Shown piece by piece: positions 32,487 to 40,072 of a stretch of 64,000 nt of DNA (position 1 is the stretch's first letter; every line of letters begins with the position of its first letter). Made by a program: the position numbers and the translations under genes. The notes below the pieces were generated by a model, which saw only the letters and a program-made list of their open reading frames with translations, made no database searches and had not been told where the DNA came from. The stretch is taken from contig JEMX01000096.1 in NCBI GenBank assembly GCA_000585055.1, forward strand, positions 1 through 64,000, in the 5' to 3' direction. The stretch comes from Candidatus Accumulibacter appositus (GTDB lineage Bacteria; Pseudomonadota; Gammaproteobacteria; Burkholderiales; Rhodocyclaceae).

Positions 32487-34097
32487 TCACCCAGCAGGCG
32501 CCGGCTGTTTGCAGTCCTTGAGCTGCCGACGCTGCGCGGCGTCGAGCCGCCAGACGGTTCGTCGGTCATCGGCAAATGCGATCGCCTGCTCGGGAAGGAA
32601 TGAATAACGCTGCGCCTGCGCCGTTTTCCCCCACACCCACAACGAAGCTCCGGTGTAGGCGCACAATCGCGCCACGAACTCCTCGGGAAGCAGCAGTACG
32701 GCACGCATTTTCTCGGCATCGAACTGGCCGGCGTCATAGAGCTCCTTGCGCCAGTTGTCGCGTGCCGCAATGGCCGCCGCATCCTGCCATTCGCTGACCA
32801 CCCAGACGTCCCGATCGGGCCGCAGATAGAACGGCAGGTCGTACTCGTACTCATCGATCATCACCAGCTGATCATCGGAGCTGTACAAGGGCGCCACCTG
32901 CTTGCTTAGGCTTCTCGTCGAGGTCGAATCGAAGACCACCACCAGCGCGATGAACGCGACGCACAGGCTGGCGGCAAGGAACAGACTGCCGCCCAGGTAG
33001 AGTGACCGCCGGGCGCTTGGCCCTTCATCCTGCCCCTGCGCCCGCTGCTGCAGCCAGCCGAGCAGCACATCGGCGATCAGGAAGGCGAGCGGGGGCAGCG
33101 CCGGCAGGATGTAGCCGACGAGCTTCGAGTTGGGCAGCGAGAAAAAAACGAGAATGCCGAACATCCACAGCAGCATCAGGCTGCGGATGTCGCCCCTCTC
33201 CGGATCCACCAGGTACTTCCACGAGCAGACGCGCAAAATCCACGGCGACCACGGCAGCGCGCCGAGGAGCAGCACCGGGATGTAGAACCAGAAGGGCTGC
33301 GCATTGCTGAAGCCGGTCTGTGAGAAACGCTGGAAATGATGATAGACAAAGAAGTAGTCCCAGAACCCGGGATACGAGATCTGCATCCAGACGAACCACG
33401 GCGCGGCAACGGCCAGGAACAGACCGATCATCGGCAGCGAAAGTAGCGCCGGGATCAGTCGGTAACGCCTACGCAACAGCAACCACGCGAGCAGGATCGC
33501 GCCGGGCAGGACAAAACCAATCAAGCCTTTGGCAAGCACACCCAGGGCCGCAAAAACGTAGGCGGCGGCCAACGCCGGGCGATACGACCGGCCGCTGTCG
33601 AGGCGCAGAATGGCGCTCGCCCCGCAGACGATGGTCGCCGAGATCATCCCGGCGACGAGCATGTCGAGGTTGGCATACTGGGCAGCGGCAAAAAACATCG
33701 GCTGCGTCACCAAGACAGCCACGGCGACAGTCGCCAGGCGCTGCTGTGCATGGCGCGCGACAAAAAAGAACAGCCCGCCGACGGCGAGCAGCGCGCCGAA
33801 TACAGACGCCAGGCGAGCCGCCCAGTCGTTCACGCCAAAGAGCTGCAGAGCCAGTCCCGTCAGCCAGTAGAAAAGCGGTGGCTTGTGGAAATATGGCAGG
33901 CCATCGAGCGTCGGCGTCAGCCAGTCGCCACTGCTGAGCATGGCCAAGGCGACGCCGACATAGCGCCCCTCATCAGGCAGCATCAGCGATCTTGTGCCAG
34001 CCAACATGAGCAGCCACGCGGCACAGAGCAGCAGCACCAGAAGCTTGCTACGCGGTTCGAGGAGGCTTGCCGTCACTGCCGAAAGAAAACGTTTCAT
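32487..34097 (-). CDS. ArnT-like glycosyltransferase (GT-C fold, family 39 type)
   Basis: This 536-residue integral membrane protein has about 11-12 hydrophobic segments and a C-terminal soluble region (about 420-536). The first periplasmic loop carries the catalytic acidic pair in LMLPDEGRYVGVALAM (Asp42-Glu43), followed by FHKPPLFYWLTG, both typical of ArnT and PMT-like transferases. These enzymes move sugars from undecaprenyl phosphate to lipid A or other acceptors. Its ATG overlaps the stop of the cobalamin-binding protein gene by 4 bp, an odd pairing. The frame extends upstream, but that part is a shadow. Confidence 0.88.
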   Translation of the reverse strand: MKRFLSAVTASLLEPRSKLLVLLLCAAWLLMLAGTRSLMLPDEGRYVGVALAMLSSGDWLTPTLDGLPYFHKPPLFYWLTGLALQLFGVNDWAARLASVFGALLAVGGLFFFVARHAQQRLATVAVAVLVTQPMFFAAAQYANLDMLVAGMISATIVCGASAILRLDSGRSYRPALAAAYVFAALGVLAKGLIGFVLPGAILLAWLLLRRRYRLIPALLSLPMIGLFLAVAAPWFVWMQISYPGFWDYFFVYHHFQRFSQTGFSNAQPFWFYIPVLLLGALPWSPWILRVCSWKYLVDPERGDIRSLMLLWMFGILVFFSLPNSKLVGYILPALPPLAFLIADVLLGWLQQRAQGQDEGPSARRSLYLGGSLFLAASLCVAFIALVVVFDSTSTRSLSKQVAPLYSSDDQLVMIDEYEYDLPFYLRPDRDVWVVSEWQDAAAIAARDNWRKELYDAGQFDAEKMRAVLLLPEEFVARLCAYTGASLWVWGKTAQAQRYSFLPEQAIAFADDRRTVWRLDAAQRRQLKDCKQPAPAG

Positions 34098-35011
34098 GTC
34101 TGCTCGACCGAAGGGGGTGGCGGGTTCTGGCTGCCGCTGTCTGACGGCGCCGGCACGAGAAGGCCGATCGGCTCGACGGACGCCGCCCAGGCGTCGAACA
34201 GACGGCGCAGCGCGGGCAAACCCTCGCGAATCGCCGCCGGCCCTGGCGAGAGGATCAGTGCCGACTTGATCTCGTGCAACTGCCCGGTAGCGACCGCGGG
34301 AATTTCCCGCCAACCTGGCCGCGCGGCGACTTTCTCGGCGCGAAAACGTTTCCCGCACCAGGAGCCGATGATGATCTCCGGCGCGCGGCGGACGACCTCG
34401 AGCGGGTCGGCGATGATCCGTTCGACAGCCGACTGCTTGCCTGCCCGCTCGGAGAAGACGTCCTCACCACCGGCAATCCCGATCAGTTCAGAAACCCAGG
34501 CGATGCCGGCAATGGACGGATCGTCCCATTCCTCGAAATAGACTCTTGGCCGGCGCGGCAGACGGGTGGCCTCAAGCCTGGCCTGGGCAATGCACTCCTC
34601 CAGCTCACCGACCAGCGCCATCGCCCGTTCGCTGACGCCGACCAGGCGACCAACGGTCACGATCATCGCCAGGATGCCTTCGACCTGGCGCTGGTTGAAG
34701 ACATGCACCGCCACGCCAGCCTTGATCAGCTCGCGGGCGATGTCCGCCTGCAGGTCCGAGAAACAGAGCACCAAATCCGGCTCGACGGCCAGGATGCGCG
34801 CCAGATCGCCACTGCTGAAGGCAAAGACCTTGGGCTTTTCCTGGCGCGCCCGCGGCGGGTAGACGGTATAACCACTGATGCCGACGACACGCGCCTCCTC
34901 GCCGAGTGCGTAGAGGACTTCAACCGTTTCGGTGCTCAGACAGACGATGCGCTTGGGCAGGCGATCACCACCGAAGGTGAACGCCGAAGAGGTGGCGGTA
35001 GTGGAGGTCAT
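34094..35011 (-). CDS. Cobalamin-binding protein, BtuF-like without signal peptide
   Basis: This 305-residue protein has the periplasmic-binding-protein type III fold of BtuF: LPKRIVCLSTETVEVLYALG at the start of the first lobe, VVGISGYTVYPP, and a second lobe with ASIAGIAWVSELIGIAGGEDVF-like spacing (IAWVSELIGIAGGEDVF). The N-terminus has no hydrophobic signal, so it is probably cytoplasmic. The C-terminal 40 residues are Pro/Ser-rich. It lies 40 bp after btuF and overlaps the glycosyltransferase gene by 4 bp. It may bind cobalamin or another corrinoid inside the cell. Confidence 0.82.
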   Translation of the reverse strand: MTSTTATSSAFTFGGDRLPKRIVCLSTETVEVLYALGEEARVVGISGYTVYPPRARQEKPKVFAFSSGDLARILAVEPDLVLCFSDLQADIARELIKAGVAVHVFNQRQVEGILAMIVTVGRLVGVSERAMALVGELEECIAQARLEATRLPRRPRVYFEEWDDPSIAGIAWVSELIGIAGGEDVFSERAGKQSAVERIIADPLEVVRRAPEIIIGSWCGKRFRAEKVAARPGWREIPAVATGQLHEIKSALILSPGPAAIREGLPALRRLFDAWAASVEPIGLLVPAPSDSGSQNPPPPSVEQT

Positions 35012-35051: not shown

Positions 35052-35957
35052 TCACTGTCGTGGCCGACGGCTACGCGCCGTCTCGAGATGCTGGCAAAGG
35101 AGTTCGGCGCCGTCGAGCAGACGCGGCGTGTGGCGCTGGATCAGGTCGGGTGGAACGAAGAACAGATTGTTGCGTGCAACCGCCTTGATCGACCCCCAGC
35201 GCTGCCAGTCATCGAGCCACTCGGGGCGTGCTTCACCCATGCCACTGGCAACAATCGCTTCCGGATTTGCGGCGAGGATTGCTTCGACAGTCACCGTCGG
35301 CGCCATTGTATCGAGGCTACCGAAAACATTCTCGCCACCGCACAGGCGAATGACGTCGGAGATGATCTGGCGGCGACCGACGGTCATCAGCGGTTGCTTC
35401 CATATCTGATAGAAGGTGGGCACCAACGGCCGCTCGCCGTAGCGTGTCTGCAGCGCGGCCAGGCGCCGGCGAAAACTGGCGGCGGCAGGCTCGGCGACCT
35501 CCGTGCTGCCGGCCAGTACCCCGAGGCGCTCGATCTCGCTGGCCACATCGTCGATACGATCCGGCTGCGAGACGTAGACCGGGAAACCGAGCGCCCGCAA
35601 GCGGTCGAGGTGGGCAGCCGCGTTGCCGCTCTGCCAGCCGATGATGAGGTCCGGGCGCAGCGCGATGACGCGTTCGAGGTCGATCTGCGAGTAACTGCCG
35701 ACCCGAGCGATCGCCGCCGCCGCCGGCGGGTAATTGCTGTACTCGACGCTGCCGACGACACGCTCGCCGGCACCGGCGGCAAACAGCGTTTCGGTTAGGT
35801 GCGGCGCCAGGCTGATGATGCGCTTCGCCGGCTGCGCAAGGCGTAGGCGCCTGCCGGCATCATCGATGACCTCGATCGCCTGCGCCGCGGCGTGCAGCAG
35901 GCCGCCAGCGCTCAGCAGGCAGAGGGCAAGACAGAACCGCAACGACCAAGCAAACAT
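35052..35957 (-). CDS. btuF: Vitamin B12 ABC transporter periplasmic binding protein
   Basis: This 301-residue protein has a signal peptide (LRFCLALCLLSAGGLLHAAA, cleavage near residue 25) and two lobes of the BtuF/FecB fold. Lobe one contains RIISLAPHLTETLFAAGAGE and VVGSVEYSNYPP; lobe two contains IISDVIRLCGGENVFG. It delivers corrinoids to a BtuCD permease, which is not in this window. It begins 1 bp after the cobC stop, so it is part of the cbiB-cobC-btuF transcript. Confidence 0.92.
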   Translation of the reverse strand: MFAWSLRFCLALCLLSAGGLLHAAAQAIEVIDDAGRRLRLAQPAKRIISLAPHLTETLFAAGAGERVVGSVEYSNYPPAAAAIARVGSYSQIDLERVIALRPDLIIGWQSGNAAAHLDRLRALGFPVYVSQPDRIDDVASEIERLGVLAGSTEVAEPAAASFRRRLAALQTRYGERPLVPTFYQIWKQPLMTVGRRQIISDVIRLCGGENVFGSLDTMAPTVTVEAILAANPEAIVASGMGEARPEWLDDWQRWGSIKAVARNNLFFVPPDLIQRHTPRLLDGAELLCQHLETARSRRPRQ

Positions 35958-35958
35958 G

Positions 35959-36975
35959 TCAAGGCACCCAGGTGGTGAGAGCAGAAGACAGGCGCAGCCA
36001 TTCCCTCTCGCAAGCAGGCAGGCCGCAGCGCAGCAAGCCCTGCGCCGGAAAATGCCGCGTGAGAATGGCCTGGCGTGCCAGGTGTTCGAAAAGGGAAGCC
36101 GCGTGCGGAGTGGACAGGCTGACGAACAATGCCGTACCGCCGAGCTCGCCGAAAGGCCGCAGCAGCGCCGTCAGCCGCGCCGCGGCGGCAGCCAGTTGAT
36201 GGCGAGTCTGTGCCTGCCAGCCGCGATCGGCCAAGGCCAGTCTGGCAACCGCACGCGCCGGACCGGACAGCGGCCAGGGACCGATCGCTTCGCGCAGCAG
36301 CGCCAGCTTGTCGTCGGCAGCGAAAACGAAGCCGACGCGGGCACCGGCAAGGCCGAAAAACTTGCCGAGCGAACGCAGGACGATCAGATTTGGCGCCTCC
36401 GGGCTACCGGCCAGAGCGGCCAGGCAGTTCCCGGGCTCGACATCGCCGAACGCCTCGTCAACCACCAACCAGCCGCCGCGCCGCTGCAACTGAGCCGCCG
36501 CGGCGAGCAGCTCTGCGGCCGGCAAGCGTCTGCCGGTCGGGTTGTTGGGGTTGCACAGCACGATCATCGGCGTCGCCACGGCAAGAGCGCGCGGCAGCGA
36601 CACGTTTTCCAGGCGGCGCAGCTTGTGGCCGGCACGTTGCCAGGCCAGAGGATGTTCTTCGTAGATCGGCGTCATGCAAGCCACCGCCAGCGGCGCGAAG
36701 AGCGCCGGCAGAAGCTGGATAGCGGCCTGCGAACCGGGCACCGCGAGCAGCCGCTGGCTGCCATAGTAGGCGGCGGCTGCGTCGTTCAGACCGTCGTCGT
36801 CCTCGGGCAGGCGTTGCCAGCACTGCGGATCGATCGCCGGCACCGGGTAGGCACGCGGGTTGATGCCGGTCGACAGGTCAAGCCAGTCGGCCAGCGGCCA
36901 GTCCAAGCCAGTCGGCCAGCGGCCAGTCGCCGAAAGCCGCATAGCGTGCAGCGGCGGCGCGCAGTCGACCGCCAT
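35959..36975 (-). CDS. cobC: CobC/CobD-type L-threonine-O-3-phosphate decarboxylase-like PLP protein, N-terminus altered by frameshift
   Basis: The main frame (338 residues from ATG 36975) is a fold-type I aminotransferase-like protein: LDLSTGINPRAYPVP, CNPNNPTGR, VVDEAFGD and the PLP-lysine segment RSLGKFFGLAGARVG. It would make the aminopropanol arm of cobalamin. The normal N-terminus of the family is encoded in another frame from GTG 36985, reading [20 protein letters not shown], and stops at 36878. A perfect 25-bp tandem duplication (36879-36928) joins the two frames; removing one copy restores LEHGGRL...DWPLADWLDLSTGINP. As it stands, only reinitiation at ATG 36975 gives near-full-length protein, with about 27 foreign residues. 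Confidence 0.85.
   Translation of the reverse strand: MAVDCAPPLHAMRLSATGRWPTGLDWPLADWLDLSTGINPRAYPVPAIDPQCWQRLPEDDDGLNDAAAAYYGSQRLLAVPGSQAAIQLLPALFAPLAVACMTPIYEEHPLAWQRAGHKLRRLENVSLPRALAVATPMIVLCNPNNPTGRRLPAAELLAAAAQLQRRGGWLVVDEAFGDVEPGNCLAALAGSPEAPNLIVLRSLGKFFGLAGARVGFVFAADDKLALLREAIGPWPLSGPARAVARLALADRGWQAQTRHQLAAAAARLTALLRPFGELGGTALFVSLSTPHAASLFEHLARQAILTRHFPAQGLLRCGLPACEREWLRLSSALTTWVP
36879..36928. repeat. Perfect 25-bp tandem duplication causing a frameshift in cobC
   Basis: Two identical 25-bp copies occupy 36879-36903 and 36904-36928. Because 25 is not a multiple of three, the insertion shifts the reading frame by one. In protein terms each copy encodes DWPLADWL in its proper frame. 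Confidence 0.95.
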
Positions 36976-36977
36976 GT

Positions 36978-37934
36978 TCAAGCACGCGCCAAACCCCAGC
37001 AGACCAGCAACGCCAACCATAGCATGACGCTGCGCCGAAGCAGTGCCAGCGCTTGCGCAATATCCCCGGCGCCGGCCGGCCGGCCTTCGCCGAGTGGCGG
37101 CCGCGGCTCGAGACGACCGTGATAGCGGGCTGGCCCACCCAGCGCGACCCCCAGGCTGCCGGCCCCGGCCGCCATCACCGGTCCGGCGTTGGGGCTCTTC
37201 CAGCTCGCGGCCTGCTCGCGCCAGCAGCGCAAGGCGCCGCGCGTGTGGCCGCAGAGCGCGTAGGAAAGCGCGGTCAGGCGGGCCGGCACAAAGTTGAGCA
37301 GATCGTCGACCCGCGCGGCCGCCCAGCCGAAGTCGGCAAAGCGCGGGTTGCGGTAACCCCACATGGCGTCCAGCGTATTGGCCAGACGAAAAAGCAGCGC
37401 CCCCGGCCCGCCCAGCAAGGCGAACCAGAACAGCGCCCCGAAAATGGCGTCGTTGCCATTCTCCAGCGTCGATTCAAGGCAAGCACTGGCGACACCCGCA
37501 GGGTCGAGGTCGTCGGTCTGTCGCGAAACCATCCAGCCGACATGTTGTCTCGCCAGCGCCAGATCACCGCTCGCCAGATCGTCGGCAACGCGGCGCGCGT
37601 GTTCGCCGAGGCTGCAACCGCCGAGCGCCAGGTAAAGCAGCAACACATGCAGTACCCAGCCTGGCAAGCCTTCTGGCATCAGCCACAGGGCCAGGGCGAA
37701 GAATGGCAGGACCAGCAAGCACCAGGCCAGCAGACCGCGTAGACGGCGCCCGCGAGCACGGTTCAAGCAACTCTCGGCAGCCGTGGCCAGGGCGCCAAAA
37801 CCGACCAGGGGATGCCAGCGCCGCGGCTCGCCGAGTAGCCGATCGAGCCCGGCGCCGGCCAGCGCGGCGAGCGGCAGAAATAACGCCGGCGGCATCTGGA
37901 TGGCAAGGAAAGCGGAGGAAGACACGGTCGGCAT
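36978..37934 (-). CDS. cbiB: Adenosylcobinamide-phosphate synthase
   Basis: This 318-residue membrane protein attaches aminopropanol (phosphate) to adenosylcobyric acid. It shows the family N-terminus ([20 protein letters not shown] followed by PLVGFG), then [20 protein letters not shown] and [18 protein letters not shown], with several hydrophobic segments. A second in-frame ATG at 37895 ([14 protein letters not shown]) fits the family start better. Neither start has a clear ribosome site. It is divergent from cobQ with only about 35 bp between starts and overlaps the ancestral GTG start of cobC by 8 bp. Confidence 0.93.
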
Positions 37935-37969: not shown

Positions 37970-39490
37970 ATGAACGAGCGCCCACCCCCCAGCCTGATGG
38001 TGCAAGGCTGCACTTCCGATTCCGGCAAGACGACGCTGGTCGCTGCCCTGTGCCGTATCCTGCACCGCCGCGGCGTGCGCGTCGCGCCCTTCAAACCGCA
38101 GAACATGGCGCTGAATTCGGCGGTCACCAGCGACGGTGGCGAGATCGGGCGCGCGCAGGCACTGCAGGCTCAGGCGGCCGGCGTAGCGACCCACTCGGAC
38201 TTCAATCCGGTCCTGCTCAAGCCCGCGACCGACAAGCGGGCGCAGGTAATCATCCACGGCAAAGCCTTGACCGACCTCGACGCGCGCGACTACCACGCCT
38301 ACAAGCCGCGCGCCATGCAAGCGGTGCTCGAATCGTGGCAGCGCCTGCGGGCGCAATACGACTGCCTGCTCGTCGAAGGTGCCGGCAGCCCGGCGGAGAT
38401 CAACCTGCGTGACCGCGACATCGCCAACATGGGTTTCGCCGAGGCCGTCGATTGCCCGGTGATCCTGATTGCCGACATCGATCGTGGCGGCGTTTTCGCG
38501 CATCTCTGCGGCACCCTCGACCTGCTCTCGCCATCGGAACAAGCGCGCGTCAAGGGCTTCGTCATCAACCGCTTTCGCGGCGATATCGGCCTGCTCGAAA
38601 ATGGGCTGCGCTGGCTCGAGGAACGCACCGGAAAGCCGGTGCTCGGCGTCCTGCCGTATCTACACGGCCTCTATCTCGACGCCGAAGACGCACTGCCACG
38701 CGAGAACCTGCACAAGAACTGCGCGGCGCTGCGCGTCATCGCGCCGGCGTACCCGCGCATTTCAAACCACAACGACCTCGACCCGCTACGCTTCCACCCG
38801 GAAGTCGATTTTCGCTTCGTCGGCCCGAACGAGGCGCCGCCCGCCTGCGACCTGATCGTGCTGCCGGGGTCGAAAGCGGTGCAGGCCGACCTCGAATGGC
38901 TGCGCGCACAAGGCTGGGAGGAAGCGATCCGGCGGCACCTGCGCTACGGCGGCAAGCTGATCGGGATCTGCGGCGGCCTGCAGATGCTCGGCCGCCAGTT
39001 ACACGATCCGCTGGGACTCGAAGGTCCTCCGGGCAGCAGGCCGGGACTTGCCTGGCTGGACTTCGAAACGCGGCTGGCCGCCGAGAAAACCTTGCAGAAC
39101 GTCAGCGGCGAGTTGCTGCTAGCGGGTGCAGCGAGGGTCAGTGGCTACCGCATCCACATGGGCATCACCGAGGGCGCAGCCTTGACCACCCCGGCACTGC
39201 GACTCGCCGGCCAAGCGGACGGCGCGCTGTCGAGTGATGGCCAGATTCTGGCGACCTACTGCCACGGCCTGTTCGACTCGCCACCGGCGCTGGCCGCGCT
39301 GCTGACCTGGGCAGGCCACCGGCCGACGCAGGACTTCGATGCCCGGCAGCGCCGGGAAGCCGACATCGATCGCCTTGCCGACGCCGTCGAAGCGCACCTC
39401 GACCTGCGGCAGCTGGCGGCCTGGCTGCCGGCACAAGCCCTGGTAGCCGCGCCGCGCGCGGCTCGGCTCGCCGTGCCTGCCAGCGCTTAA
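37970..39490 (+). CDS. cobQ: Cobyric acid synthase
   Basis: This 506-residue, ATP-dependent amidotransferase amidates four side chains of adenosylcobyrinic acid a,c-diamide using glutamine. The N-terminal P-loop-like domain has [20 protein letters not shown] and [26 protein letters not shown] follows. The C-terminal class I glutaminase-like domain has [16 protein letters not shown] (nucleophile Cys) and [11 protein letters not shown] (catalytic His). Its stop overlaps the stop of the convergent universal stress protein gene by 2-3 bp. The frame is open upstream as a shadow of cbiB. Confidence 0.96.
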
Positions 39491-39951
39491 TCGACCGGAT
39501 CTTCGCCGCGCACCAGCAGTAGTGAGCGGCGACCCTTGCGTACCAGGCGCTCGGCGACGCTACCGACGAAAAAGCGCTCGACGCCGCGCATGCCGTGCGT
39601 ACCGACGACCAGCAGATCGGCGTGCCATTCGGCCGCCGCTTGGATGAGCATGTCGGAGACGTGTTTCTGCTCCGACTCGATGATCCGGGTTTCGGTCTCG
39701 ACTCCGGCCGCACGTGCCGTCTCGGCCGCCTGGTCGACAAAACCCTGGGCGCCGAGACGCAGCCGCGCTTCGGTCTTGCCGACGCTGTTTGGCAGCATCA
39801 TCGCCACGTCACGCTGGGCGAGGACGGTTTCATCGATGGCATGACAGATCGCCACCCGTGCGCCGGTGCTCTTGGCCAGTTCTATCGCTGTTTCCAGCAC
39901 TCGTTTGGTCATGAAGCTCTGGTCCAGGGCGACCATGATTCGCTTGTACAT
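39487..39951 (-). CDS. Universal stress protein UspA family
   Basis: This 154-residue protein has a Usp fold with [20 protein letters not shown] at the start and the ATP-binding motif [20 protein letters not shown] near the end (G-x2-G-x9-GS). It is probably a nucleotide-binding stress protein in the cytoplasm. It converges on cobQ with overlapping stop codons. Confidence 0.93.
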
Positions 39952-40028: not shown

Positions 40029-40072
40029 CGCAGAATCAACGCAGAGTCAACGCAGAGTCAACGCAAAGTCAG
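40029..40072. repeat. Four 11-bp tandem repeats spanning the cobU stop codon
   Basis: Four units run in series: cgcagaatcaa, cgcagagtcaa twice, then cgcaaagtcag. The cobU stop (40058-40060, minus strand) lies in the third unit, so a change in copy number could alter the C-terminus or downstream region of cobU. Confidence 0.85.

Follow-up and report, generated by a model that had tools for sequence, protein, structure and literature searches.

A 25-bp tandem doubling that splits cobC in a Candidatus Accumulibacter draft assembly is very probably an assembly artifact

The cobC gene in the window (the whole 64-kb stretch of DNA that was analyzed) is split across two reading frames by an exact 25-bp tandem doubling. 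We consider it very probable that the second copy is an artifact of the assembly, an assignment made by membership of a class of similar doublings and not by direct proof. This reading is favored because the same assembly holds many exact doublings of like size, whereas the portions sampled from seven relatives contain three, all of lengths that would keep the frame. The split is most likely not a real biological feature. Judging from the sequence of relatives, the real cobC would most likely run unbroken from GTG 36985, with its start overlapping the end of cbiB. The features of the locus are listed below.

35052 to 35957, minus strand: gene for a BtuF-like B12-binding protein, directly downstream of cobC (NF002894 183.5 bits, below the cut-off of 234)
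35959 to 36985, minus strand: cobC, a CobD-type threonine-phosphate decarboxylase, from the family start GTG 36985 to TGA 35961-35959, split in two frames by the doubling (TIGR01140 on the body; family N-terminus in the other frame)
36878 to 36985, minus strand: short frame of 35 residues from GTG 36985, then TGA 36880-36878 (frame analysis)
36879 to 36903, no strand: 25-bp copy, proximal in plus-strand coordinates and second as cobC reads (100% match; the doubling is absent from relatives)
36904 to 36928, no strand: 25-bp copy, distal in plus-strand coordinates and first as cobC reads (100% match)
36973 to 36975, minus strand: ATG in frame with the body, 2 nt past the cbiB stop at 36980-36978 (frame analysis; putative start)
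36978 to 37934, minus strand: cbiB, adenosylcobinamide-phosphate synthase, upstream of cobC with an 8-nt overlap with its start, in a single open frame (TIGR00380 183.7 bits, cut-off 165.9; Pfam CobD_Cbib 311 bits)

The body of cobC (35959-36867, minus strand) matched TIGR01140 at 305.6 bits, above the cut-off of 290.55, and the stretch 35977-36900 reached 325.7 bits; the body also matched the Pfam family Aminotran_1_2. The main frame, which differs from that of GTG 36985, runs to TGA 35961-35959, and frame analysis bore out the initial annotation in placing the start of cobC and its body in different frames across the doubling. Because of the 25-bp doubling, the N-terminal HGG segment, which relatives carry in frame with the body, lies out of frame here. 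The initial annotation had also pointed to an out-of-frame ATG at 36975, and this ATG does reach the body; the number of wrong residues was counted as 24, not the roughly 27 first given, and these stand ahead of DWPLADWLDL in a product without the HGG motif. Reinitiation at ATG 36975 after the cbiB stop is conceivable from the sequence, and a protein restarted in this way would probably be poor or inactive. A stand-in gene for cobC was rejected, as a genome-wide search found no second TIGR01140 match over the cut-off, the next best reaching 205 bits. Relaxed selection or an old loss of cobC was likewise rejected: the dN/dS of the body was 0.147–0.159 against four relatives, in line with five of the six pairs that these relatives form with one another (0.134–0.156; the close pair L007-L008 gave 0.378). 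A body that has not decayed fits both an artifact and a very recent event. Beyond the BtuF-like gene, the window holds a second, weaker BtuF-like substrate-binding open reading frame at 34094-35011 (TIGR04281 84.5 bits, under its cut-off).

Tandem Repeats Finder reported 36879-36928 as a repeat of period 25 with 2.0 copies and a 100% match, so the two perfect 25-bp copies of the initial annotation stand as described. The copies are identical, and which of the two is the extra one is not distinguishable. A scan of the whole window for exact tandem duplications with units of 13–400 bp returned this doubling alone. Chance is a poor explanation for it, because, when 60 first-order Markov sequences of 64 kb were simulated and scanned for units of 10–40 bp, the longest unit reached was 13 bp. 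The 64-kb window contains no N, and there is no gap beside the cobC doubling. Elsewhere in the window, an 11-bp unit is repeated 3.9 times with a 93% match at 40029-40071, upstream of a minus-strand open reading frame at 39487-39951.

To place the doubling among relatives, 44 loci with the start of the cobC body were collected, giving 39 distinct upstream sequences and, after removal of L047 (too short) and L001 (the window), 37. All 37, each a distinct relative whose 5' end can be read, carry HGG in frame with the body, without an intervening stop and at the one-copy length, which is the intact single-copy gene that the initial annotation had expected in close relatives. The HGG is preceded by 24 or 28 residues in these relatives, and five named Candidatus Accumulibacter records matched at 74–91% of residues. 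With up to three mismatches allowed, the doubled junction was present in one of 28 genus genomes, that from which the window comes. Among the other 27 genomes and the 37 relatives, no variation in copy number of the 25-bp unit was seen. This constancy bears on a reversible slipped-strand switch, in which cobC would be turned on and off by gain or loss of one copy. A perfect tandem repeat with a 3n+1 unit is mechanically capable of such switching, but the relatives keep to one copy, and like doublings also occur in trpB and ftsE, genes that one would not expect to be switched. We regard a switch as highly improbable and rejected it, as the copy number is constant among relatives and positive support is nil.

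Among the 27 other genus genomes, 20 have cobC with its 5' end and one (G006) has it cut at a contig end. In the remaining six (G002, G003, G007, G017, G020, and G027), no close cobC was found, only distant aminotransferases, and three of these six are 99–100% complete. The aminopropanol arm of cobalamin synthesis may, from these gene contents, be truly patchy in the genus. For the window itself, the initial annotation had held that this arm is affected; the sequence does not justify the claim that aminopropanol synthesis is lost. The lack of a close cobC in six genomes does show that this gene can be lost in the genus, which lends something to the reading that a real and recent 25-bp duplication inactivated or weakened cobC in this strain. 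The perfect copies and the undecayed body would suit a very recent event, and no run of N lies near the doubling. Against it stand the in-frame HGG of all 37 relatives and the state of the rest of the assembly, described next, and we consider a real duplication unlikely.

Exact tandem duplications with units of 13–400 bp were surveyed in 40 stretches from elsewhere in the same genome (671,868 bases other than N, with contig starts over-represented; three of the 40, short contigs, were all N) and in 40 control stretches from seven genomes of the same genus (728,749 bases). The same genome yielded 28 doublings and the controls three. Units of the 28 were 15–29 bp, with exactly 2.00 copies in 12 cases, and 21 of them were not a multiple of three, near the two thirds expected without selection. 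All three control doublings came from one genome (G001), and each was a multiple of three. The difference in rate gave p = 1.5e-6, and p = 2e-7 for non-multiples of three. Six of the 28 had a run of N within 350 bp, against 0.45 expected (p = 4.9e-6), although some of these N runs may mark sequence withheld by the operators instead of gaps in the assembly. All three p values are too small, because they assume independence and the doublings cluster: 14 of the 40 stretches hold all 28, one (L105) holds eight, and the variance-to-mean ratio is 3.2, which leaves 26 stretches free of doublings. Without L105, the counts were 20 against three in total and 13 against none for non-multiples of three. 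When units of 18–60 bp were compared with the window included, perfect copies numbered 23 against three, and copies with one to three mismatches 11 against six; the excess in this genome thus lies mainly among perfect copies, and that among imperfect ones is small. Since 28 like doublings occur here and no frame-shifting one occurs in the bases sampled from the relatives, a technical cause has a much higher prior than a real duplication in cobC.

Some of the 28 doublings may be natural. Specifically, L063:4326 and L064:3709 resemble simple repeats, and one in L067 lies within a dispersed repeat some 35 bases long (L067:14940-14976), for which the surrounding 511-base query matched G010 103 times, G001 14 times, and G011 not at all; a comparison of relatives around L067:14993 fell on this repeat. 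The densest cluster seen was at L105:2262-13890 (contig C19 of the window's genome, G000), where eight exact doublings of 20–29 bp lie within 12 kb; two of them fall in a single IMP-dehydrogenase-like gene, and another adjoins a RecQ match. By eye, the frame seems to change again in the flank of a 29-bp doubling in the same stretch (L105:13833-14190), in a reading that we take to be aconitase-like, and further indel errors may lie in this contig.

For six of the 28 doublings, flanking DNA was searched against protein families in nine separate pieces. The pieces matched trpB on both sides of one doubling, FtsE and Kup beside one each, and RecQ on one side of one; three more, which surround two doublings, matched IMP dehydrogenase, and the piece on the other side of the RecQ doubling (L105:3890-4186) had no family match. 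The doublings split trpB, ftsE, a recQ-like gene, and an IMP-dehydrogenase-like gene. Only one trpB stretch in the genome passes the cut-off; it covers profile positions 76-384, positions 1-82 falling in a different frame. The best FtsE match in the genome, at 263.0 bits, falls just below its cut-off of 264.85 and contains an internal TGA. The split IMP dehydrogenase is not evidence that an essential gene was hit, because a further unbroken copy lies on contig C44. Net lengths in relatives were compared at four loci. Relatives were shorter by exactly the doubled unit where they could be aligned: by 22 bases in five of five genomes, by 19 in four of five (the remaining one without a full match), by 24 in one of five, and by 46 (20 + 26) in three of five, the others in the last two cases being without full matches.

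An excess of duplications within one genome, with a recQ-like gene among those split, could also be produced by a real mutator defect in the lineage that generates short exact tandem duplications genome-wide, with cobC as one victim. Scaled from the sample, such a defect would have left about 200 events, three quarters of them of frame-shifting length and including the only over-cut-off trpB stretch and the best ftsE, a load that a living lineage would probably not tolerate. The doublings are also enriched at N runs, and aged, imperfect copies are only slightly in excess (11 against six); both count against such a defect, and we hold a mutator to be most improbable. We give equally little credence to the broader idea that the doublings are real, with the lineage or part of its population gaining exact duplications of 15–29 bp at a very high rate and reversibly switching off cobC, trpB, and ftsE. 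The doublings are exact, blind to frame, enriched at N runs, and rare in the sequence sampled from sibling genomes, they hit the core genes trpB and ftsE, and few aged copies accompany them; for these reasons the process behind them appears to be the assembly's own.

An assembly artifact could have arisen as follows. In this draft genome of 218 contigs, pieces whose ends overlap by roughly 15–29 bases would have been set end to end at many points, and an overlap left unmerged would have been written twice. At cobC, one such unmerged overlap would add 25 bases and produce an apparent frameshift, the doubling there being a putative member of the assembly-wide class. It resembles that class in its size, in being exact, and in being missing from relatives. 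Unlike part of the class it has no adjoining N run, and the lack of any N in the window, the single doubling there, and the 26 of 40 sampled stretches free of doublings speak against an artifact. Of the three options that the initial annotation had left standing (a recent loss, a reversible switch, or an assembly error), the assembly-wide excess favors the last, and the switch is without support. As to tools, LINKS was used to scaffold the relative UW-LDO-IC (G022) and GapCloser to fill its gaps (PMC6446978), and this genome had no exact doublings in 119,799 sampled bases. Gap filling alone thus need not cause doublings, and no particular tool is blamed.

For cobalamin biology, an artifact removes one supposed loss. 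It is unsafe to infer frameshifts, numbers of pseudogenes, or missing steps in B12, tryptophan, or cell-division pathways from this genome, and a search for exact tandem units of about 15–30 bp not divisible by three offers a simple error screen for other drafts.

Compared with known systems, the body of the window's gene is an ordinary member of the CobD/CobC threonine-phosphate decarboxylase family (TIGR01140), which includes the solved structures 9jfb and 1lc5, the latter presumably the Salmonella-type CobD. An intact relative from G022 matched 9jfb with an E value of 2e-56 over residues 7-333 and 1lc5 with 4e-19. Unlike this family, the window's gene has its HGG segment out of frame in this assembly. 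In phase-variable, or contingency, loci, the copy number of a tandem repeat sets the reading frame. The copy number of the cobC repeat sets the frame in the same way, but there are only two copies, the number does not vary among relatives (doubled in one of 28 genus genomes), and the same feature recurs across unrelated genes of this assembly. There is also a likeness to the false duplications of draft assemblies, in which extra copies, frequently next to gaps or produced by faulty gap filling, garble annotation (PMC9516828, Genome Biol 2022). At cobC, too, exact copies absent from relatives occur within a frame-blind excess in the assembly, consistent with extra copies made by the assembly that garble gene annotation. 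The cases in that paper, in the part relied on here, are duplicated exons and genes in vertebrate genomes, whereas those in this bacterial draft are exact and 15–29 bp long.
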